Assembly: GCA_947457925.1 (NCBI GenBank)
Contig: CANGYA010000022.1
Span: forward strand, 1 to 32,509
Direction: 5' to 3'
Length of the DNA stretch: 32,509 bases
From: Cytophagales bacterium
GTDB taxonomy: Bacteria; Bacteroidota; Bacteroidia; Cytophagales; Thermoflexibacteraceae
The translations under genes and the position numbers were made by a program. The notes beneath the pieces are model-generated. The model saw only the letters and a program-made list of their open reading frames with translations. It did no database searches and was not told the origin of the DNA. Below, piece by piece: positions 1,329 to 31,094 of this stretch; position 1 is the stretch's first letter; each line of letters begins with the position of its first letter.

Positions 1329-4300
1329 ATGAAATTTTCCAATATTATACATACACTCACTATTCTTTTTGTTGGTTTTTGCTGTTGCTTGGCTTCGGTT
1401 ACAAATTTATTTGCCCAACAACAAGAGATTGGTAGTTCTTTTTCGCACAACTATGCCCCCACAGACTTTAAGGCACACATGCAAAATTGGTCGGTGGTGC
1501 AAGACAAACGAGGCATTTTATACTTTGCAAACAAAGATGGTGTTTTGGAGTATGATGGTGCGACTTGGCATATCATTAAAGTAAGTCGTGATGTACGCAG
1601 TTTGGCAGTAGATGCAGACGGCGTAGTATATGTAGGGGCTATTGGGGATTTTGGGTACTTGCAACCTCGTATAGACGGAGAAATGGAGTTTGTTTCTTTA
1701 TTAGGTTTAATAGACTCTACAATGAGAGATTTTGGAGATGTTTGGAAAGCCCATAGCACCCCCGAAGGCATCTGGTTTCAGTCTTATAGTTGGTTGGCTC
1801 TTTACAAAAATAAAAAACTACAACTTTTTTACCCTTCACAACGAGAGGCATTTCATTTTAGTTTTGCAGTTCGCAATCAAATCTACGTTACAGAAGAAGG
1901 CGTAGGCTTGCTCACTATCGAAAACAATCAATTAAAACTTGCTAAAGGCGGAGAGTTTTTTGCCAATGAACGGATATACGCCCTCTTGTCATACGACACA
2001 CAACGTATTTTGGTAGCCACACGCAACTTGGGCTTGTTTATTTGGAATCCCAGTACAGGCAATTTAGAAAAATTTATTACACCTCTCAATGACTATTTGA
2101 TTAGTAATCAAATTTATCATGGCATCAAACTACGTAATGGCAATTATGTTTTTGCTACAATTACAGGTGGAGCAGTGGTCATGAATGCAGCAGGCGAAAC
2201 AGAGCAACTGATTAATAAGCAAGCCTTTTTACAAACAGAAAGTGTGTACTATGTTTATAATGACCGCCAAAACAACTTGTGGCTGGGTTTAGACAATGGT
2301 ATTTCGTTTGTGGAGGTTGAGTCGCCTTGGCAACAATGGAACGAAACACATGGCTTAAAAGGCACAGTTTACTCTATTGTTCGCCATGAAAATACGCTGT
2401 ATGCGGCTACCTCGCAAGGTGTTTTTTATTTGCAAAACAACCATTTTATTCAAATAGAAGGCATAAAAGGACAGACATGGGACTTAATCTCTGTACCTGC
2501 CGTTGCAGGTAGCTACCCAACTAAATTATTAGTAGGTAATGCCGTAGGTGTATATGCCATAGAGAACTACAAAGCTACCAAACTCTTTGCGGGTTCTCAT
2601 GCTTTTAAATTCTTTCACTCTAAAAAAACACCAGAAAAAATCTATATTGGTTTCAATAACAGCTTGGTGATGTTGGAATTGGCAGGCAATAATGTGCTTT
2701 ATAGAGGTTCTTTAAAAGAAATAGAAGGAGAAATTCGCAATATCACAGAAGATGACGAAGGTAATGTTTTAATTAATATTCCGTTTAGAGGTTTGTGTGT
2801 GATTAGTGCAAGTGTAGAAAATGGACGTTTTATAGCCGATGAACTCGTATATATTGGCGAAGACAAAGGGTTTAATAGCCTTGAAAGTGAGGTATTTATC
2901 TTAAATGGTAAGTTGGTATTTACGAACAACAAAAAATTATTTCACTTCAACGAACAAACAGGCAGATTCGAAGAAAACTCTGTTATAGATAAATATCTGA
3001 ATGATGGAGTCATCACACATTTAACCAATGACAAAAATGGGAACATTTGGTTTTCAATGATTCATAATGTTTCTAAACAAGAAGCTATCGGTGTTTTACG
3101 GAAAGGCAAAGATGGTAAGTATATAGACGGTACAAATGAATTTAAGAGGCTGCCCCCAATGTCTATTCAAGAAGTGTACCCAGAAGAAAATGGTTACATT
3201 TGGATTGGCGGTTCTTCTGGTTTGTTCAGGTACAATGGTCTAATTCCTAACTACTATATTACTTCTTACCAAACTCTTATTCGTAAAATTTATATTAACG
3301 AAGACTCTCTGTTGTTTACAGGCAATTTTTTGGGGAAAACTACAACTGATGGCATCATTATGACTGCCACCGAACAGCCCGAAATACAGACACCAACATT
3401 AGAATATGACTACAATGAGATTACTTTTCATTTTGCTGCACCCTATTTTACAGATGAAAGGCAGACTTTGTATAGCTATTATTTAGAAAATTTTGATAAA
3501 AACTGGTCGACATGGCATACGCAAACAAGCAGAGAATACACCAACCTGCCCGAAGGTAGCTATACTTTTCATGTCAAAGCCAAAAATATTTATGGTGTAG
3601 AAGGGAAACCTGCCCAATTTTCTTTCAAAATCTTACCGCCTTGGTACAGAAGTCGTTGGGCTTACGCCTTGTATATTATAGGAGGTTTGGTGTTAATATG
3701 GGGATTTATAACAGGCTATACTCGCAAGTTGAAGAAAGAAAAGGACGTATTGGAGCAAACTGTAACAGAAAGAACGGCAGAAATCAATCAAAAAAGAGAA
3801 ACATTGGAGAGGCAAACATTAGAAATTATGCAACAAACCGAAAACCTACGTTTCTTAAATGACCAATTAGCCCACACCAACCATGAATTAGAAGACCAAA
3901 AAGCAGAAGTTGAAAAGAAAAATGAGGATATAAAAGCAAGTTTGAACTATGCACAACGTATCCAAAGTGCCATGCTGCCAGACGTGCAACGCATGAAACA
4001 GGTATTTAATGACTTGTTTGTGCTAATTATGCCAAGAGATATTGTGTCAGGAGATTTTTATTGGTACGCAGAAGTCCGCAAACACCGTTTAGAGGAAAAA
4101 ATGCACCACAAAATAGAAATAAGAGATGTTTCTGAAACTCGAAATATACAGTTTGCCCCTGATGTGCGTGAAATTCAGGACTTTGCCACAGTTATGGGCG
4201 AAGACTATGTAGTTCCTACGGGCTTTCAAGTATTAACAAGGCAAACCATCATAACAGCTGCCGACTGTACGGGTCATGGTGTACCAGGAGCTTTAATGAG

Positions 4301-4886
4301 TATGATTGGTAGTAATTTGTTGAATGAAATCGTATTTATGCGAGGCATTACAGAGGCAAACGAAATTTTATTTGCTCTTAGCCATGGTGTTAGAGCCTTT
4401 TTAAAACAAGATGAAAGCAAAAGCAAAGATGGTATGGATATGGCTTTGTGTATGATAGACTGGGACGAGAGAAAGTTGTATTTTTCTGGCGCTAAGAATC
4501 CACTCATTTATATACAAAACGGAGAAGTAGTAGAAATCAAAGGCGATAAAAAATCTATTGGTGGTGCTGCTACCACCAATAAGGAACAAAAAGATACTAG
4601 TAAGTTTAATTTGCACGTCATAGACCTCGAAAATACTACACACTTCTACATGATGTCAGACGGTTATGAAGACCAATTTGGTGGCTTAGAAGGCAAAAAA
4701 TTCATGCGTAAAAATCTAAGAGAGCTAATTGTCAAAACACATCATTTGAGCATGGAAGAACAACATAGTATTTTGAAAAGTAGCATTATAGATTGGATGA
4801 GAGTAGGTAAGCAATCACAAATAGACGATATTTTGGTGATGGGTTTCCGAATAGACGCATTAAACCCTAATAAAAATGAAGTTTAA
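1329..4886 (+). CDS. Propeller/Y_Y_Y sensor with SpoIIE-type PP2C serine phosphatase
   Basis: A 1185-residue membrane sensor. A signal peptide (residues 1 to about 29, ending NLFAQQQ) leads into repeated propeller units of the two-component-regulator-propeller type, with blades such as NNLWLGLDNGISFVE and GYIWIGGSSGLFRYNG, through about residue 680. A Y_Y_Y domain (about 690-772) precedes a membrane segment (about 778-798) and a coiled coil (about 800-885). The cytoplasmic C-terminus is a SpoIIE/PP2C phosphatase with metal-binding aspartates in SGDFYW (Asp909), DCTGHGVPGA (Asp979) and MSDGYEDQFGG (Asp1111). Related proteins sense a periplasmic ligand and dephosphorylate serine on an anti-anti-sigma-like partner. 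About 50 extra residues, rich in charged residues, lie between the first two catalytic motifs. The gene is monocistronic, with its own promoter and a strong terminator. A possible cognate kinase lies at 15952-16353, but their pairing is inference. Confidence 0.92.
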   Translation: MKFSNIIHTLTILFVGFCCCLASVTNLFAQQQEIGSSFSHNYAPTDFKAHMQNWSVVQDKRGILYFANKDGVLEYDGATWHIIKVSRDVRSLAVDADGVVYVGAIGDFGYLQPRIDGEMEFVSLLGLIDSTMRDFGDVWKAHSTPEGIWFQSYSWLALYKNKKLQLFYPSQREAFHFSFAVRNQIYVTEEGVGLLTIENNQLKLAKGGEFFANERIYALLSYDTQRILVATRNLGLFIWNPSTGNLEKFITPLNDYLISNQIYHGIKLRNGNYVFATITGGAVVMNAAGETEQLINKQAFLQTESVYYVYNDRQNNLWLGLDNGISFVEVESPWQQWNETHGLKGTVYSIVRHENTLYAATSQGVFYLQNNHFIQIEGIKGQTWDLISVPAVAGSYPTKLLVGNAVGVYAIENYKATKLFAGSHAFKFFHSKKTPEKIYIGFNNSLVMLELAGNNVLYRGSLKEIEGEIRNITEDDEGNVLINIPFRGLCVISASVENGRFIADELVYIGEDKGFNSLESEVFILNGKLVFTNNKKLFHFNEQTGRFEENSVIDKYLNDGVITHLTNDKNGNIWFSMIHNVSKQEAIGVLRKGKDGKYIDGTNEFKRLPPMSIQEVYPEENGYIWIGGSSGLFRYNGLIPNYYITSYQTLIRKIYINEDSLLFTGNFLGKTTTDGIIMTATEQPEIQTPTLEYDYNEITFHFAAPYFTDERQTLYSYYLENFDKNWSTWHTQTSREYTNLPEGSYTFHVKAKNIYGVEGKPAQFSFKILPPWYRSRWAYALYIIGGLVLIWGFITGYTRKLKKEKDVLEQTVTERTAEINQKRETLERQTLEIMQQTENLRFLNDQLAHTNHELEDQKAEVEKKNEDIKASLNYAQRIQSAMLPDVQRMKQVFNDLFVLIMPRDIVSGDFYWYAEVRKHRLEEKMHHKIEIRDVSETRNIQFAPDVREIQDFATVMGEDYVVPTGFQVLTRQTIITAADCTGHGVPGALMSMIGSNLLNEIVFMRGITEANEILFALSHGVRAFLKQDESKSKDGMDMALCMIDWDERKLYFSGAKNPLIYIQNGEVVEIKGDKKSIGGAATTNKEQKDTSKFNLHVIDLENTTHFYMMSDGYEDQFGGLEGKKFMRKNLRELIVKTHHLSMEEQHSILKSSIIDWMRVGKQSQIDDILVMGFRIDALNPNKNEV

Positions 4887-4949
4887 TTGCTTTATACTGT
4901 TGATAATAAGCAGGGTAGTCAAATAAGTTTGAGACTGTTAAGTAGTAAT

Positions 4950-4982: not shown

Positions 4983-5405
4983 CTACTTTCTTATCAGGTA
5001 ATAAGTGTAAATTACGTCTTCTTTACCTGGCACACTTGCTTTATATTCTAAGCGAAGTTCTCTTGCACTCATTACTTTGCTGGTTTCTGTTACTAAACCA
5101 TTAGTATTGAACAAGATACTGTTTTGGCTCATCTCTTTCCAAGAACCACCTGCTGGTAAATCTCTTCTAACAAAAATTCTATTATCAGGATTTACAATTT
5201 CATAACCACCTTGTGTAAAGGTAATAGTAAAATTATCAAACTCATTAGGAGGAGCTACCTCTGTTCCGTATGTAGCTTGGCGGATAGTCCATGTTTTGCC
5301 ATTAACAAGAATTTGCCCTAAAGTTACAACATAATCGGGTGCAGTCTTACAAGAACCCAATATGGTAACAAATAGTATAAAAACTAATGAAAAATACTTT
5401 TTCAT
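4983..5405 (-). CDS. Small putative lipoprotein, function unknown
   Basis: About 140 residues. I chose the ATG at 5405 rather than the in-frame ATG at 5444: it gives a textbook lipoprotein signal, MKKYFSLVFILFVTILGSC (lipobox LGSC, Cys19). The upstream ATG lies inside the hairpin at 5438-5461, which looks like the end of the protease gene. The mature part resembles a small beta-sheet domain (KTWTIRQATYGTEVAPPNEF, FTITFTQGGYEIVNP), the style of lipocalin-like or DUF5004-like Bacteroidota lipoproteins, but I do not recognise the family with certainty. It is the last gene of a leftward cluster behind the exoprotease and may be co-transcribed by read-through. Confidence 0.8.
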   Translation of the reverse strand: MKKYFSLVFILFVTILGSCKTAPDYVVTLGQILVNGKTWTIRQATYGTEVAPPNEFDNFTITFTQGGYEIVNPDNRIFVRRDLPAGGSWKEMSQNSILFNTNGLVTETSKVMSARELRLEYKASVPGKEDVIYTYYLIRK

Positions 5406-13078: not shown

Positions 13079-14206
13079 TTAATAATAATAACTTGTCAAA
13101 CTTACAGGCATTACCAACATCAATACGTCTTCTCCTTGTGTATTACTTGTAGGTAACATCAATACGGCACGATTAGGTTCAGACATTTTTACATATACTT
13201 CGTTGGTAGCTAAGTTGCTCAACATCTCCATCAACATACGAGCCTGAAAACCTATTTCCATTTCATTACCGTTATAGTCGCAAGACAAACCTTCATTGGC
13301 TTCGTTAGAAAAATCCAAGTCTTCGGCAGAAACTGTCATAGTTTCACCACCTAACTTGAGTTTTACTAAGTTAGTAGATTTGTTGGCATAGATAGAAATA
13401 CGTTTCAAAGAACCTAATAATTCTACTCTGTTAATGGTCAAGTTATTAGCGTTGTTCAAAGGAATTACGTTTTCGTAATCAGGGAATCTCTCATCTATTA
13501 ATCTACAAACCAACTTCATGTTACCAAAAGTAAAGAAGGCATTAGATTTATTGAAAGTTACAAGTACAGGAATATCACTTGAAGGCAAAGCATTTTTCAA
13601 TAAGTTCAATGCTTTTTTAGGTAAAATCACAGAAACTTCGGATTGAGAAGTTACGTCATCTCTGCGGTAACGCACTAAACGGTGGCTGTCTGTAGATACA
13701 AACGTAACATTCTTAGGGCTTAACTGCACGAATACGCCGTTCATAGACGGTTTCATCTCGTCATTGCTAACTGCAAACAACGTATAGGCAATAGCACTTG
13801 ACAATACCTCCGCAGGGAACTCTATTTCTTCGGTTGCCTTTACTGCCAATGGCTCTGGAAAATCATCAGCATTTTCACCTGCTAATCTGTAACGACCTTT
13901 GTCCGAAATAATTTCTACGGCATAGGTTTCTGGGTTCATCACAATCGTAACAGGTTGTTCGGGCAAGTTCTTCAAGGTTTCAATCAACATTTTAGCGGGG
14001 ATAGCCACTTTGCCGTCCTCATCACTATCTACAGCTACCTCTGCGGTCATTGTGTTCTGCATATCAGAAGCTGTGATGATTAACTTGTTATTTTCTACTT
14101 TGAATAGAAAATTCTCTAAGATAGGCATAATAGGGTTGCTCAATATCACACCGTTTAATGCCCCTACTTGTTTAAGAAGATTAGCTGAGGAAATGATGAA
14201 TTTCAT
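13079..14206 (-). CDS. dnaN: DNA polymerase III beta subunit (sliding clamp)
   Basis: 375 residues, the normal clamp length. It begins MKFIISSANLLKQV and contains clamp signatures such as LPEQPVTIVMN, NGVFVQLSPKNVTFVSTDSHRLV, LIDERFPDYENVIP and a C-terminus VLMLVMPVSLTSYYY that replaces the more usual MPMRL-type ending. Three tandem clamp domains are expected. The homodimeric ring tethers the replicative polymerase and many repair proteins to DNA. A TAACTTCG sequence at 14238-14245 (minus strand) is one base off the TAnnTTTG promoter element and could drive it. dnaA is not adjacent. The gene lies about 11 kb from the origin candidate at 25285-26520 and reads away from it. Confidence 0.97.
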   Translation of the reverse strand: MKFIISSANLLKQVGALNGVILSNPIMPILENFLFKVENNKLIITASDMQNTMTAEVAVDSDEDGKVAIPAKMLIETLKNLPEQPVTIVMNPETYAVEIISDKGRYRLAGENADDFPEPLAVKATEEIEFPAEVLSSAIAYTLFAVSNDEMKPSMNGVFVQLSPKNVTFVSTDSHRLVRYRRDDVTSQSEVSVILPKKALNLLKNALPSSDIPVLVTFNKSNAFFTFGNMKLVCRLIDERFPDYENVIPLNNANNLTINRVELLGSLKRISIYANKSTNLVKLKLGGETMTVSAEDLDFSNEANEGLSCDYNGNEMEIGFQARMLMEMLSNLATNEVYVKMSEPNRAVLMLPTSNTQGEDVLMLVMPVSLTSYYY

Positions 14207-15340: not shown

Positions 15341-15370
15341 TCACAAGTGTTTCACGTGAAACACTTGTGA
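15341..15370. other. parS: parS centromere site 1 (ParB-binding)
   Basis: The 16-bp sequence TGTTTCACGTGAAACA at 15348-15363 exactly matches the broadly conserved chromosomal parS consensus bound by ParB. It is extended on both sides into a perfect 30-bp palindrome (TCACAAG on the left, CTTGTGA on the right). It lies between the divergent coiled-coil gene and ybeY, 28 bp upstream of the ybeY ATG, so bound ParB could also influence these promoters. Confidence 0.93.
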
Positions 15371-15398: not shown

Positions 15399-15836
15399 AT
15401 GGCAAAAAAAATTAACTTCTTTGTAGAAGATGTCGAATTTACACTCAAAAACAAACAAAATATACGCACTTGGATATTCGACACGATTCAGGCGTATCAA
15501 TGCAAGGCAGGGGAAATTAACTATATTTTTTGTTCTGATGAATACTTACGAAAAGTAAATATAGAATACTTGCAACACGACTATTACACAGACATTATTA
15601 CGTTTGATAGTTCGGAGGAAGAAGGACTTATTGCGGGTGATATGTATATAAGCACAGAAAGAGTTGCAGACAATGCCGAACAATTAGCAACAACCTTTGA
15701 GCAAGAACTCTATCGTGTGTTAATACATGGCATCTTGCACCTTATTGGTTATGCAGATGACACAGATGAAAATGAAGCCGAAATGAGAGCATTGGAAAAT
15801 AAAGCCTTGCAAAATTTGACTTCGAATAAGTCTTAA
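15399..15836 (+). CDS. ybeY: Endoribonuclease YbeY (rRNA maturation)
   Basis: 145 residues, typical of the UPF0054/YbeY family, a metal-dependent RNase in 16S rRNA 3'-end maturation and ribosome quality control. Family marks are FCSDEYLRKVNIEYLQHDYYTD, TFD (about 68-70), GDMYIS (80-85) and the metal motif HGILHLIGYADD (from His110). The usual H-x3-H-x5-H triad is here His110, His114 and Asp120. An Asp in the third position is, as I recall, common in Bacteroidota YbeY. The start ATG gives the normal N-terminus. The gene is bracketed by the two parS sites and ends before a strong bidirectional terminator. Confidence 0.93.
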   Translation: MAKKINFFVEDVEFTLKNKQNIRTWIFDTIQAYQCKAGEINYIFCSDEYLRKVNIEYLQHDYYTDIITFDSSEEEGLIAGDMYISTERVADNAEQLATTFEQELYRVLIHGILHLIGYADDTDENEAEMRALENKALQNLTSNKS

Positions 15837-15857: not shown

Positions 15858-15881
15858 CAAGTGTTTCACGTGAAACACTTG
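15858..15881. other. parS: parS centromere site 2 (ParB-binding)
   Basis: A second exact TGTTTCACGTGAAACA at 15862-15877, embedded in a perfect 24-bp palindrome (CAAG on the left, CTTG on the right). It lies 514 bp from site 1, just past the ybeY stop. Clustered parS sites are typical of chromosomal origins. Confidence 0.93.
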
Positions 15882-23886: not shown

Positions 23887-25284
23887 ATGCAATTCCACCG
23901 TAATTATAATAACCCCCACAAGAGTTTGAAACCCTTGTGGGGGTATAGTGGTGTAGTGTTACATACCCTACTCTTGTGTTTGTTGGGGGCTTGTGGCAAA
24001 GAAAGTGCAGTGCAGACTTACCAAGAAGTCATACAGTTTCACCAACGACATATAGGATTTAGCAAGAACGTAGCAACCGAAAGTTTACCTGCTGCGACTT
24101 ATTCACAAATAGATACGCTGAATATTTATGTTAAACAGCATAAAGATTTAGGTCATGCCGCCGAAGTAGCTCGTCCTTTTTTACAAGCATTTGGTAGCAG
24201 CCTTCAACAACTTGCTACAAGCACTTACATTCAACCGCATAACCAATTTGGTGTAAAAGATAGCACAAAAAAAAGTTTGAACGAAGTCTTAACAACTACT
24301 TACTTTACGGCTACTCCCCTAACCTCTTTGCCTGCTTCACTTGTTTTCCAAACGGCTTTGGATAGTTTGCAGCCTTTCGTTTGGATAGACAATTTTACGG
24401 AAGATACGCCTGCGTTGGTAACTGCTTTGACACAGTGGCTAAAGGCTGGACACCGCATAGACTTGTTGGCACACAAAGTTTGGCAGCAAGGCAAACTGTC
24501 GTATTTATATGTTTTATTGGCTACGCCTGTTGCTTATACCAACACTACGAACTATGCGAAATGGTTGCAGACATTGGGCAAATTTGAAAATGAAAATTGT
24601 ACGTGGTGGGTGTACCAAACCCCCAAAGATATTTTTAAGATAAGGGCAACGGGTACGCATACAGGAAAAATCAATCCTCTACTTAACATAATATTTGATG
24701 AAACTCTGCGGGCTATGCACTTAGATTATTATGAACTGCACAAAGACAAATTATTGAGTTGGTATCAAAAAGACAGCACACAGTTTTTATTGTCCGACTT
24801 GTATGTAGATTATGATACGGCACGTTATCAACTAAGCATCAACCCACAGTTATATGACCTCACCGAAAGTTTTTTGGCGTACCAACAGTTTAGGGAACAA
24901 GACACGATACGGTACGGACAAGACGCAGAAACAGCACAAAGGGCATTGGCAGAAGGACAAAATATGTTGTTTCGGTTTACCCAAAATCCCGTTTATCAGT
25001 GCCTTGTGAATGAAAATAGTGTAACGGAAACAGGTACAAACTGCCAAGTACATTTGGATAAAATGTTTCCTATGAATGAACGAAACGGCATGGGGCTGTT
25101 TCGCATAGATTGGCAACTAAGCAAGTGCGAAGTCAAAACCCCTACCCGACTACAACTTTTGCTGAAAGCTACCAAAGATGCACCCAAACCTTTTCATGCT
25201 TTGTTGTGGGCAGCTACACAAACTACCACAGTAAAACCTACCAACAGCCAGCCATTGTATAGTCATTATCTTTTAGTCCGTTGA
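23887..25284 (+). CDS. Putative lipoprotein of unknown function beside the origin candidate
   Basis: 465 residues. The N-terminus runs to a lipobox LLGAC (Cys36), preceded by TLLLCLL, and so appears to be a lipoprotein signal with an unusually long basic n-region. Codons 9-20 of that n-region are made of a palindromic repeat (23912-23944). The mature protein contains many Gln, Thr and aromatic residues, with segments such as VFQTALDSLQPFVWIDNFTE and LTQWLKAGHRIDLLAHKVWQ (a numeric or gliding-lipoprotein-like helical layout), plus four cysteines in the last third. I do not recognise the family. Codon use matches its neighbours. It transcribes toward the DnaA-box region that begins right after its stop. 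Confidence 0.8.
   Translation: MQFHRNYNNPHKSLKPLWGYSGVVLHTLLLCLLGACGKESAVQTYQEVIQFHQRHIGFSKNVATESLPAATYSQIDTLNIYVKQHKDLGHAAEVARPFLQAFGSSLQQLATSTYIQPHNQFGVKDSTKKSLNEVLTTTYFTATPLTSLPASLVFQTALDSLQPFVWIDNFTEDTPALVTALTQWLKAGHRIDLLAHKVWQQGKLSYLYVLLATPVAYTNTTNYAKWLQTLGKFENENCTWWVYQTPKDIFKIRATGTHTGKINPLLNIIFDETLRAMHLDYYELHKDKLLSWYQKDSTQFLLSDLYVDYDTARYQLSINPQLYDLTESFLAYQQFREQDTIRYGQDAETAQRALAEGQNMLFRFTQNPVYQCLVNENSVTETGTNCQVHLDKMFPMNERNGMGLFRIDWQLSKCEVKTPTRLQLLLKATKDAPKPFHALLWAATQTTTVKPTNSQPLYSHYLLVR
23912..23944. repeat. Palindromic repeat inside the 5' end of a coding region
   Basis: ACCCCCACAAGAGTTT and AAACCCTTGTGGGGGT pair over 16 positions with one mismatch around a single G. The repeat lies in codons 9-20 of the 23887 lipoprotein gene, so a stable mRNA hairpin forms just after the start codon. 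Confidence 0.85.
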
Positions 25285-25493
25285 GATTTAAAAGGTTTGT
25301 TCTGTTACTTATTCAACAAGTTATGCCCCAAAATTTGAATTTCCAAACACACATTTCTACTTATTCACATTTTTGGCAATAAAAAGACGCATTTCAGCTT
25401 TTCATTGCTTAGTTTGTGAATAAGATGTTGATTCTTGCCCGATTTCTATGCAAAATCAACATCTTATTCACACACCTACTAATAGTGCTTATC

Positions 25494-25565
25494 AAATTTT
25501 GTAGCATAGACTTTAGTCTGTGTATAAAATCAAATGCACAGACTAAAGTCTATGCTACAAAATTT
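25494..25565. repeat. REP-like perfect 29-bp inverted repeat inside the origin candidate
   Basis: Arms 25494-25522 and 25537-25565 are perfect reverse complements with a 14-nt loop. They carry GTAGCATAGACTTTAGTC, the same element as at 22256. It lies between the second and third plus-strand DnaA boxes. Confidence 0.85.
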
Positions 25566-26370
25566 TAGTAATGTCTAATATAGTTATTCACACTACAATA
25601 TCAAAATAGTTGATTTTTCAACTTTCAAAGCATTTTATTGTGAATAAACCTTGCAATAACCTTATTACAAGCCCACTACAACCTTATTTATTACGCAACT
25701 AATTGGTTCAACTACTTATTCAAGCAATTAGCTATAAGCTATTGAATTTTCGCACTAAAAAAACCACTTATTCACACTTTTTACTCAAAAACAAGCTATT
25801 TCAGTTATTCACTTTGTAATTTGTGAATAAATTTTACGTATTTCATTGAAAAACAAGCTGTTTTATGGCTATAAGGCAGAGTTATTCACAGTTTGTGAAT
25901 ATTTTTTGCGAATACACCAAAATCAATTATTTATTCACACGCATTAACTAAACAACTGAAAATCAAAGTGCTATTCAGATATTCACAAGTTTTATTCACA
26001 TTTTGAATAATTATGTGAGTATTTTTTAGTTGCAAACTTGCTTGTTCACAATTTTTACGGTTCGACTACGATTTATGTGAATAAGCTGTGAATATCGAGT
26101 GAATAGCTGGTGAATAAGTGTGAGTAACTTTTTGCCTTTGTGTGAACAAATCAGTTATTCGCACAGTACGGTGAATAAGAGTGCGTAACTATTGGGCTTA
26201 TGCACAGGTTATAAGGAGGCTATTCACTGGGTTGTGAATATTTTTTCTATTTTTTTTATTCACATTTACAAGTGAATAACTTAATAACTATTTGATTTTC
26301 AATAAATTACATTGTGAATAACTTAACTTCTATAGTAGGTTGAACAGACTTATTCACTTATTCACAGCCC

Positions 26371-26430
26371 TTATAACTATATATACTATAATTTGAAAAT
26401 TTTTAAAAAATAAAAAAAAGTAATCATATT
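26371..26430. promoter_or_regulatory. Candidate DNA-unwinding element
   Basis: Sixty bases with only five G or C, between tandem boxes at 26350/26358 and boxes at 26440, 26453 and 26470. This is the usual arrangement of the stretch melted by DnaA. Confidence 0.55.
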
Positions 26431-26520
26431 AATAGTATGTGTGAATAAATCGGGTGAATAAGTTTTTTGGGTGAATAAAATTGGGCTTCAAAAAATGTAG
26501 TTGCTTTTTGGTGTATCAAC

Positions 26521-26565
26521 AAAAAAACGGCTCAAACAAGAAAATTCCGTTTGAGCCGTTTTTTT
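26521..26565. terminator. Bidirectional intrinsic terminator bordering the origin candidate
   Basis: Seven A followed by ACGGCTCAAAC-type arms (26521-26537) pair perfectly with 26549-26565, which end in seven T; the stem is 17 bp with an 11-nt loop. It ends the M41 gene on the minus strand and would stop transcription from entering the DnaA-box region. Confidence 0.92.
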
Positions 26566-26595
26566 TACTATAATGTGAATAAGTGTATGAATAAC

Positions 26596-28503
26596 TTATT
26601 TTTTACCAAACTTTTCCAACTGTTCTTGGTAGCCAAACAAATACAAATAACCTTCTTCTTTTACAGTAGCAGGTATTTCGTATTGAGCAGCCATTTGAGC
26701 TATTTCTTCTGCGGTCAAGCTACCTTTCTCGTATAAACTTTTTGAGAGGTTTACCAAAAATGCCTTGTGTTCTGTGAGTAACTCGTGAGTTTCTGATACC
26801 AAACGGCTAATCATTTTCTCTACGTCTGTGTCTGTTACGGTCATGCTCATAGAATAACCGTACTGCATCATGTAATAGGCTTGAAATTCCTCATCAAAAC
26901 CGTACTTACGCACATAATCTAAGGCTAAGGCGGTGGCACTTTCTCTGTCGTGTTCTCTGCCTATGGTGGCGTTGTTTCTGCCAAAGATAATTTCTTCGGC
27001 AATGCCTCCAGCCAAATACACTTTTATCTTGTCTATCAACAACTTGCGTGTGTGGTAAATTTGGTGTGGAAACGTGAACCCACTTGCATAGTTAGAAGCT
27101 ACCTTAGATTTGAGTTGCAAAGGTGCTAAACCAAACAAAATAACATAAGCTACGGCGTGTCCTGCTTCATGCACAGATACATTGGCTACTACGTCTGGCA
27201 CGTTGCCCTGACGAATTTTATCAATTCTGCCCTCGTAAGGAATTTCTACCTGATGATTAGACAAATTGCCTATAATTTTTTTACGTTCAAAATCATAGTC
27301 AATGCTAATCGTAGCAAAGCCTTTGAGCAAAGCCTCGAATAAGAGTTGCGACAAATTCGTTTCCAAAATGTCTGTTACACTGCTAAACACAGGACGAACC
27401 CCCTGCACAGGAAATACGCCGTTTTGGTAAATCAACTGGTTGATATTGGTACTTACTTGTAGCGTAACATTAAAAATCTTTTTGGTTTTATCTATCACTT
27501 CTTGTATTTCTTTGGCGATTAACTTTTCAAAGTCTTTTCGCTGTAAACTCCTGTAAATGAGGTGAATGTTTCCAAAACGTGCTACTTGTTCAGGCTTAAA
27601 CTTACGAGCTAAGGCTTGTTTAATATCTACTACCGTAATTTTTTTGGTGTACGCATGAAAAATATCTGCGTCAATGTCCGACTCTGCAATCTCGTCTGCC
27701 ATTGTAAAAGCCTCGTCCAAATTTCCACTAATCAAAATCAAGGTTTTGGCGTGGCTGATAGGCTCATAGACTTTTTTATGCTTTTTGGCAGCTTGCATTT
27801 TGCCAATCAATTCCTCACGAGTCATTTCGGCAATCGTCAAAACATCTTCTTCTATGTTCAAGATTTTTTTCCAATAGTTAGCTTGGTACAAACCTATTGG
27901 GCTTGTCCAATCTTCTTCTTCGGCTTCTTCGTTTTTGTCTTTGCGTTTTTTTGCCTGTTTGTTGCTAAACAAAAATTCGTTGATGTAGTAGTCGAGGTCG
28001 TCTTTTTCTCTTTTGGCTAATTTGCCATCACTAAGCAGTTCCCAAAAGTCTGTAAATTTGGTCGTTTCTAAGGGTTTGCCGTCTGTGTCTATGGTGTAAA
28101 ACCGTTGGATTTCGTCAAAAAGCACAATGGCGGGCTTGCCGTCATTCACATTGGCATCTTCCAATAGATTTGCCACAGAGCTACGCCAAGACGTAACGTC
28201 CCCGTTGCTCAATTCTACTTCTACAAATCTGTCTTGAAAACTTAGTTTCGATACCAAACGTCTTACCAAGTCCGTTTTGCCTACGCCTGTCATACCCCAC
28301 AAGTTCACGATAATAGGTCTGTTGAGAACTTCGGGCATCAAGTACCAAATCTGAATATAATTGACGAGTTCATCAATAATGGCATCTATACCTACAAAAT
28401 CTTGCTTCAGTTCTTCTTTGATTCTCTCTAAGGTTTGCTTTTTTTGATGAATTTCCTCTAAATCTACAGTAAAACGGGGTTCGGTAGTTGTGATAGTGTT
28501 CAT
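26596..28503 (-). CDS. Soluble AAA+ ATPase fused to an FtsH-type M41 zinc protease
   Basis: 635 residues with no membrane segment, unlike true FtsH, which has two. The AAA+ module has Walker A GMTGVGKT (70-77), Walker B AIVLFDE (125-131), a sensor-1-like LILISGN (to Asn261) and a Clp/Hsp100-style small domain with QGVRPVFSSVTDILE (Arg370 as sensor 2). A charged insert (about 181-199, KKRKDKNEEAEEED) interrupts the ATPase. The C-terminal M41 domain has VHEAGHAV (zinc ligands His445 and His449), GGIAEEIIFG and REHDRESATALALDYVRKYG (Asp519 matching the third zinc ligand of FtsH). All catalytic residues are present, so it is probably an active cytosolic ATP-dependent protease. ATPase similarity is to Clp-type rather than FtsH-type. 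Its substrate is unknown. It ends at a strong terminator beside the origin candidate. Confidence 0.88.
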   Translation of the reverse strand: MNTITTTEPRFTVDLEEIHQKKQTLERIKEELKQDFVGIDAIIDELVNYIQIWYLMPEVLNRPIIVNLWGMTGVGKTDLVRRLVSKLSFQDRFVEVELSNGDVTSWRSSVANLLEDANVNDGKPAIVLFDEIQRFYTIDTDGKPLETTKFTDFWELLSDGKLAKREKDDLDYYINEFLFSNKQAKKRKDKNEEAEEEDWTSPIGLYQANYWKKILNIEEDVLTIAEMTREELIGKMQAAKKHKKVYEPISHAKTLILISGNLDEAFTMADEIAESDIDADIFHAYTKKITVVDIKQALARKFKPEQVARFGNIHLIYRSLQRKDFEKLIAKEIQEVIDKTKKIFNVTLQVSTNINQLIYQNGVFPVQGVRPVFSSVTDILETNLSQLLFEALLKGFATISIDYDFERKKIIGNLSNHQVEIPYEGRIDKIRQGNVPDVVANVSVHEAGHAVAYVILFGLAPLQLKSKVASNYASGFTFPHQIYHTRKLLIDKIKVYLAGGIAEEIIFGRNNATIGREHDRESATALALDYVRKYGFDEEFQAYYMMQYGYSMSMTVTDTDVEKMISRLVSETHELLTEHKAFLVNLSKSLYEKGSLTAEEIAQMAAQYEIPATVKEEGYLYLFGYQEQLEKFGKK

Positions 28504-29225: not shown

Positions 29226-31094
29226 ATGAATGAGAAAATAGAAAGAATAAAAGATAAATTAGAGTTTTATATCAAAACTAATCAATACCAACCGATTGAA
29301 ACGGAAAATATTGAACTGAAAGATGCCTCAACTAAAGGGGATTGGAAATCTATTCATGAAACGGTTTGTGCTTTTCTGAACACCGAAGGCGGTTGTATTA
29401 TCTTTGGCATTAAAGAAGTACAAGAAAAAGGTAAAAAATGGTATAAGTTTACAGGGTATGACGAAAACAATGAAGAAAATTATAAGAAAATAGCTACGGT
29501 CTTTTATGATGACAAACAAAAAAACTTATTAGTTAAAGACTATTTACAGTTTGAAATCGTTGATTTTTTGCAAGGACGTATTTGTATTTTGTATATCAAT
29601 AGCTTGCCTGTACAAGAGAAATTTGCTTTTTATGAACAGAAAGCCTACCAAAGAACTTTAACGGGTGATACTGAGATTTCGGAAGCTAAATTATTGCAAC
29701 AGAAAGAGTTAAAAGAAAATTTAAGCCTTTCCAGAGAACTTCAGTTAGTACCTTCTGCCACTATCACGCATCTTGATGTAGATACGTTGAATGATTACAT
29801 TTACCAAATCAACAGAGATGTAAAAGTGGAAACGACTAAGCCCGATATTATGGCTGCCAAAAGTTTTTTAGAACGTAAAAAATTTTTGATTAACAATGAA
29901 GTTACGACATTGGGAATGTTGGTATGTGGTAAAAGCCCAGAAGATTTTTTAGGAGAGAGGTGTCAAGTAGATTGTTATGTAGATTCGGTAATAGAAGTTG
30001 TGCGGGATAAAAAGGTACTCAAAGGTAACATTTTATCATTGATGACAAGGGCTATTAATTTTGTGATGAAAAATATACAAGTAGGGGTAAGTCCTACAAA
30101 TGGCGGACAGGCAATAACGGAATATCCTGAAAAATTGTTGAGGGAAAGCATCAATAATGCCTTAGCTCACCGAGATTATGCACAAAATAAGTACACAACC
30201 ATTGTGATTAAACCGAATACAAGTATTGAAATTAGAAATGCGGGACTTTTCAAGAAAAATTTATTAATAGAACACCACCAACACAGTATTCCGTTGCGTA
30301 GGATTTTGCCAGATGTAAAACGAAATAATCCCTTGTTAGTAGATATTTTGAAGTCGTACGACAGGTATGAAGGGCGTGGTATTGGCATTTCTGTACTTAC
30401 GAATGAATGTTTGAACAATAAAATAGATTTGCCCTATTACAAATTTCATTCAGACAACGAAATGAGTTTGGTCATACGTAAAGGAAAATTGTTAGATGAT
30501 GAAATTAGCTCATTATTAGAGAGTTACAACGGATTTATTCTCAAAATGACCAACGGTGTGGAACTAACAGAAGAACATCAATTAGTATTAGCGTATTTGA
30601 TAAAATCTGAAAGAGAAAACCAAAACTACAGGTACACAATTTTACTCACACCAGACAATAATCACTTACAGGCTATTGGACAACTAAAAACTTGGGGCTT
30701 AATATATGAGCATGAATTGAGTACCAGCAATATTCCTGTCTTTATTGTGCATAGACAACTTTTACAAAAAGACTTTATAATAGAACTAAGAAAAGTTTTT
30801 GGAGGAGCTTATGATAATCTTTCACAACTACACAAAGATTGTTTACAAGTTGTCTATCAATATACTTATTTTGCAAATAATAAAAGTTTGACTGCCAGCA
30901 AAGTATCTAATTTTTTATGGCTCAAACAAAAAGGAGAAGTACAAAATCATCAACTTAAAGAATTTGATAGTTTTAAAAGAAAAATTAGAAAAATATTTGA
31001 ACAATTACAAGATGAAAAAATGATTATCAAACAAGAAAATACTTATTGTATTAATGAAAAGTTTGAGAGAATAAAGTCATCATTGTTTGATTAA
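29226..31094 (+). CDS. AlbA_2 (Schlafen-type) domain protein with C-terminal ATPase-like and helical regions
   Basis: 622 residues. An N-terminal AlbA_2/SLFN domain (about 20-135) is marked by IELKDASTKGDWKSIHETVC and AFLNTEGGCIIFGIKE. A RecG-like HATPase_c_4 region (about 300-400) contains LRESINNALAHRDY and IEIRNAGLF. The last 180 residues are helical and probably winged-helix (LTEEHQLVLAYLIKSER, LTASKVSNFLWLKQK). Proteins of this build are annotated as putative DNA-binding transcriptional regulators and also occur in phage-defence loci; some AlbA_2 domains are nucleases. No defence partner is adjacent. The gene has its own promoter and appears more AT-rich than glmM or lpxH, which may reflect transfer, but I have not computed this. 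Confidence 0.8.
   Translation: MNEKIERIKDKLEFYIKTNQYQPIETENIELKDASTKGDWKSIHETVCAFLNTEGGCIIFGIKEVQEKGKKWYKFTGYDENNEENYKKIATVFYDDKQKNLLVKDYLQFEIVDFLQGRICILYINSLPVQEKFAFYEQKAYQRTLTGDTEISEAKLLQQKELKENLSLSRELQLVPSATITHLDVDTLNDYIYQINRDVKVETTKPDIMAAKSFLERKKFLINNEVTTLGMLVCGKSPEDFLGERCQVDCYVDSVIEVVRDKKVLKGNILSLMTRAINFVMKNIQVGVSPTNGGQAITEYPEKLLRESINNALAHRDYAQNKYTTIVIKPNTSIEIRNAGLFKKNLLIEHHQHSIPLRRILPDVKRNNPLLVDILKSYDRYEGRGIGISVLTNECLNNKIDLPYYKFHSDNEMSLVIRKGKLLDDEISSLLESYNGFILKMTNGVELTEEHQLVLAYLIKSERENQNYRYTILLTPDNNHLQAIGQLKTWGLIYEHELSTSNIPVFIVHRQLLQKDFIIELRKVFGGAYDNLSQLHKDCLQVVYQYTYFANNKSLTASKVSNFLWLKQKGEVQNHQLKEFDSFKRKIRKIFEQLQDEKMIIKQENTYCINEKFERIKSSLFD

Follow-up and report, generated by a model that had tools for sequence, protein, structure and literature searches.

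The gene-free interval at positions 25285-26595 of the window (the whole stretch of 32,509 nucleotides analysed here, with a GC content of 37%) is very probably the chromosomal replication origin (oriC) of a Bacteroidota species. The window itself corresponds to contig C22 of a draft genome (4,864,219 bases, 329 contigs), and its gene content suggests a Bacteroidota bacterium. The interval is bounded by the stops of two converging genes (23887-25284 on the plus strand and 26596-28503 on the minus strand) and holds a large array of DnaA boxes. The identification draws on the array itself, its uniqueness in the draft genome, its recurrence in related genomes, the coincidence of the homologous site with the skew minimum in some of these, the layout of a putative unwinding module, and the presence of parS sites in the neighbourhood. 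A preliminary description had proposed a probable chromosomal origin here, and that proposal is supported by the skew minima at the homologous site in relatives and by the nearby parS sites and ybeY gene. It appears that oriC can in this way be placed in a poorly studied family of the Bacteroidota, in which it is not findable by looking beside dnaA.

The interval contains 16 exact TTATTCACA/TGTGAATAA 9-mers, distributed over both strands. In dinucleotide-preserving shuffles of the interval itself such 9-mers occurred with a mean of 0.06 and a maximum of 3. The preliminary description, which had reported the sixteen copies, the absence of genes and a chance expectation far below one, was therefore correct on these points; it had also mentioned about fifteen boxes with one mismatch, which are indeed numerous, the actual count being 19 beyond the 16 exact ones. 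The remaining 31 kb of the window together contain 2 exact and 24 one-mismatch TTATTCACA sites. When only the 7-bp core TATTCAC is considered, the interval holds 29 sites (13 on the plus and 16 on the minus strand) against a shuffle mean of 0.29 and a maximum of 3, where each count is one of sequence matches and not of proven binding sites. The 29 sites share TATTCAC by definition; the core is preceded by T in 23 of the 29 cases, and followed by A in 20, by T in five and by C in four. The box site of the window can thus be written as TTATTCAC(A/T/C).

The draft genome as a whole contains 161 exact copies of TTATTCACA. Outside the array these are sparse among the matches listed, with about 0.04 expected per 1.3 kb. 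Recurrence of the same 9-mer array at several other loci had been named beforehand as an argument against an origin; the 4.86-Mb draft genome yielded no second array, and the cluster patterns used in the genome-wide search matched the window contig alone. Another explanation of the array would be that the boxes arose as a side effect of many insertions of a dispersed palindromic repeat. A copy of such a palindrome (25494-25565, with 32-nt arms that are 97% complementary) indeed lies inside the array, and its 15-mer AGACTTTAGTCTGTG occurs in 288 copies in the genome. However, the palindrome carries no box and covers only 72 bp, TTATTCACA is not amplified elsewhere among the matches listed, and the arrays of the relatives share the motif while their spacers differ. 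We attach hardly any probability to this explanation, and the palindrome copy is probably not part of the function of the origin. A similar but different palindrome, GTGTGGACTTCAGTCCACAC-like, was observed near the array of the related genome G002 (L065, about 3845-3925).

The spacing of the boxes is irregular over the interval as a whole. In the left part of the array (25361-26000) the boxes are mostly 12-130 bp apart and include several facing pairs at a distance of about 54 bp. Four head-to-tail boxes on the minus strand follow at 26076-26117, spaced by 11 bp (cores at 26077, 26088, 26099 and 26110), and a right-hand group, also on the minus strand, occupies 26440-26582 (cores at 26441, 26454, 26471 and 26575). 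Within this last group an intrinsic-terminator-like hairpin is found at 26521-26565, with perfect arms of 17 nt and A and T runs, where the gene 26596-28503 on the minus strand ends.

A module at 26350-26448 consists of tandem boxes, a short spacer, an AT-rich tract and an inverted box, and this layout recurs in most of the relatives that were aligned. The tandem boxes, TTATTCACT-TTATTCACA on the plus strand at 26350-26366 (sequence TTATTCACTTATTCACA), border the putative unwinding region, and tandem boxes are found at this place in G007, G009, G010, G011 and G012 as well. The adjoining tract at 26367-26439 is the probable DNA-unwinding element and aligns with a similar tract in seven relatives. 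The 60 bp with the highest AT content in the window lie within it (start at 26371-26379, 91.7% AT, flanked by boxes), so that the extreme AT-rich tract of 60 bp that had been noticed among the box groups is real. On the other side the inverted box at 26440-26448 leads, 5' to 3' on the minus strand, into CATA-CTA-TTA, which may be a run of DnaA-trios (26408-26448). Trios were scored as a run of trinucleotides whose middle base is A (3'-GAT-5'), no more than 16 bp away from a box. In the window, comparison of the score with shuffled sequences gave p = 0.022 on the right side and p = 0.11 on the left side; the signal was stronger on the left side in G002 (p = 0.003) and on the right side in G007 (p < 0.001), and it was not significant in G009-G012. 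An arrangement of two unwinding elements that face inward, each with its trios, was considered and dropped, since on most sides the trio signal is too weak for such a claim.

Related arrays were sought in twelve other genomes of the same family. The array of G007 contains 18 TATTCAC cores within 600 bp, that of G004 about 49 on a 10-kb contig, and that of G002 11 cores. In G012 the same origin location (G012:C25 1-760, L136) is occupied by about 25 TTATCCACA boxes, with TATCCAC cores. Sparser arrays were identified in G003, G009, G010 and G011, the last of which is weak. In G003, G004, G007, G009, G010, G012 and, weakly, G011 the array lies directly upstream of one orthologous TPR gene. The exceptions to this adjacency are G002 and the species of the window: in both the array is separated from the TPR gene, which is not accompanied by an array there, and in the genome of the window the TPR gene is located on contig C61. 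For the relatives, useful anchors turned out to be the TPR gene together with the gene for an Ig-like lipoprotein in G007.

A link to replication is provided by the GC skew of contigs of the relatives. On the 313-kb contig of G007 the cumulative skew reaches its minimum at 49,767, next to the array at 50,233-50,560, and a skew change of this size was reached by none of 2,000 block permutations. The minimum on the contig of G006, at 196,131 of 303,530, lies within 195,753-196,163, the interval upstream of the TPR gene (p = 0.0025). In both genomes the minimum thus falls in the array site or within 0.6 kb of it. In G002, whose array spans 4,401-4,924, it is found next to this array at 5,039, close to the contig end and not significant (p = 0.34), and no clear skew change was seen in G009 or G012. 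The cumulative skew of the window itself has its minimum at 16.9 kb (p = 0.22), on a contig that with 32.5 kb is too short to be informative.

These data also bear on the possibility that the array is a cluster that titrates or recharges DnaA, similar to datA or DARS of E. coli, and that oriC is located elsewhere. Such loci hold DnaA boxes, are intergenic and may lie away from the skew minimum, and a cluster of five boxes in G145, a genome from another family of the order, is indeed far from the skew change of its contig, which indicates that box clusters are not always origins. Nevertheless, we consider this very unlikely for the window: no second array was found in the draft genome, in G006 and G007 the skew minimum coincides with the homologous site, and an AT-rich tract with tandem and inverted boxes recurs in the family. 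Moreover, datA and DARS contain few boxes, as opposed to the 29 cores of the window. The cluster of G145 belongs to a small TTATTCACA cluster of four or five cores that is conserved in G084, G122 and G145 (L139, L140 and L141). It was considered as the origin of that other family and rejected on the basis of its position off the skew change in G145; a role as DnaA-titration or regulatory site is possible.

The sliding clamp gene dnaN, a chromosomal housekeeping gene recognised by its Pfam DNA_pol3_beta domains, lies 11 kb from the array (13079-14206, minus strand), and ybeY is found at 15399-15836 on the plus strand. According to tblastn, ybeY is also present near the array site in G005, G006, G007, G008 and G011. 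In the window ybeY is flanked by two parS sites GTTTCACGTGAAAC (15349-15362 and 15863-15876), both perfect 14-bp palindromes, at 9.4-10 kb from the array, and parS matches occur at a few kb from the array site in four relatives (G006, G007, G009 and G012). An rsbW-like gene lies beside ybeY near the array site in G005-G008, and an rsbW-like gene is likewise found near the window array. Some observations speak against the reading as oriC: the two genes that flank the array both point toward it, opposed to the movement of the forks, the array is not beside the TPR gene as in most of the family, and no canonical DnaA boxes were found upstream of dnaA. The gene dnaA is not a neighbour of the array. 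It is intact, encodes the recognition motif DHSTV and is located on contig C54; in the relatives dnaA and array are on different contigs as well. Adjacency to dnaA is common, and not universal, for a bacterial oriC.

The gene at 26596-28503 (minus strand), which adjoins the array, encodes a protein with AAA, ClpB-small and M41 peptidase domains. Its relatives, 51-62% identical, are found in cyanobacteria (Chamaesiphon), Thiothrix and Chitinophagales, among others, and the other family genomes yielded no ortholog, which makes a horizontal gain probable. For lack of an ortholog in the family the gene was dropped as a synteny anchor. Further to the right, at 29226-31094 (plus strand), lies a gene for a Schlafen/AlbA_2-domain protein of 622 aa. 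Together with the numerous copies of a single short motif within an AT-rich interval, the neighbouring, probably acquired peptidase gene might suggest an iteron-like origin that belongs to an integrated plasmid or a second replicon on the contig. Against this, the contig carries the chromosomal housekeeping genes dnaN and ybeY and has no recognised plasmid initiator, the boxes occur on both strands with irregular spacing, unlike iterons, and the arrays of the relatives are found in a shared chromosomal neighbourhood. We regard a plasmid-type origin as extremely unlikely.

For the chromosomal origin, binding of DnaA, the site of opening and origin activity are predicted by analogy with the general DnaA-dependent initiation pathway. 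DnaA, encoded elsewhere on the chromosome, would bind the many TTATTCAC(A/T/C) boxes and, acting from the tandem pair at 26350-26366 on one side and from the facing box at 26440-26448 on the other, would open the AT-rich tract. The opened tract would then allow loading of the helicase and the departure of two forks, after which ParB, bound to the parS sites some 10 kb away, would segregate the new origins.

Compared with known origins, the origin of the window is an element of an ordinary kind, with unusually many boxes of a known minority form. The E. coli consensus is TTWTNCACA, and in the Epsilonproteobacteria position 5 is as a rule a strictly conserved T (PMC5043019). The fit of TTATTCACA to the consensus, as claimed in the preliminary description, therefore holds, and the box form called unusual there is so only relative to TTATCCACA. 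In view of this consensus and of the epsilonproteobacterial boxes the spelling is not new; no report of a Bacteroidota origin with a TTATTCACA box was found in the open-access literature searched. The very high number of boxes stands, as the 29 cores compare with 5-19 boxes in the origins that have been reviewed (PMC4285127). The largest count in that review, 19 boxes, belongs to the oriC of Streptomyces coelicolor, which has a large array in common with the window (29 exact 7-bp cores) and with G004 (about 49) but differs in the spelling of the box.

The origins of the Epsilonproteobacteria (Helicobacter pylori, Wolinella succinogenes, Arcobacter butzleri and Sulfurimonas denitrificans; PMC5043019) share with the window the core TTCAC, the T in position 5 and variation in the last base; the W. 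succinogenes box is written TTWTTCACN (PMC5043019). The double box ts1/ts2 of H. pylori (PMC5043019) resembles the tandem boxes of the window. However, the epsilonproteobacterial origins are located at dnaA and usually comprise two clusters, whereas the window has one large cluster, far from dnaA and between convergent genes, in a member of the Bacteroidota. The basal unwinding system of the B. subtilis type consists of tandem DnaA boxes, a GC-rich spacer and DnaA-trios (PMC8287927). The window likewise has tandem boxes, a GCCC spacer and an AT-rich tract, and trio-like CTA/TTA runs after a box are clear in G002 and G007; in contrast to the B. subtilis type, the window shows only a modest trio signal (p = 0.022), located where the inverted box lies, and several relatives are without it. 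With the oriC of E. coli the window has in common the combination of a DnaA-box array with an AT-rich unwinding element, and in several relatives mnmG (gidA) is found close to the origin site; the dominant box is TTATCCACA in E. coli and TTATTCACA in the window.

Worth following up is the series of box spellings between genera within the family, which ranges from TTATCCACA in G012 via TTATTCAC in most genomes to a degenerate TRTTCA in G005, G006 and G008. No canonical DnaA-box cluster was found in the latter three. Their interval upstream of the TPR gene (L143, L144 and L145) contains 9-11 TRTTCA sites versus 0.8 expected, and in G006 this interval, which also holds the skew minimum, is the only one of 6,063 windows on the contig to reach its TRTTCA count. 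In the DnaA proteins of these same three genomes (L162, L164 and L166) the motif DHS[T/A]V is replaced by DQS[T/A]I, with Gln for the conserved His; the DQ position aligns with DH of domain IV of E. coli DnaA (entry 1j1v). A shift of initiator specificity in G005, G006 and G008 is possible.

Related genomes that differ in both box spelling and DnaA recognition helix make the co-evolution of initiator and origin directly testable. We tentatively suggest that the family forms a natural series in which initiator and origin changed specificity together, and in which large arrays may buffer the binding of DnaA in the meantime. Co-evolution is offered here as a hypothesis, since the number of independent events is possibly small and the DnaA tree does not resolve several of its deep branches. 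A change from Thr to Ser in DHTTV was considered as the cause of the T at position 5 of the box and was dropped when DHSTV was also found with TTATCCACA arrays in a wider sampling. After this sampling only the residue that follows the motif DH[S/T][T/A]V still separates the TTATCCACA from the TTATTCAC groups: it is Ile in all genomes with TTATCCACA arrays whose motif was read (DHTTVI in G012), and Thr, Ser, Val or Ala in the TTATTCAC genomes.
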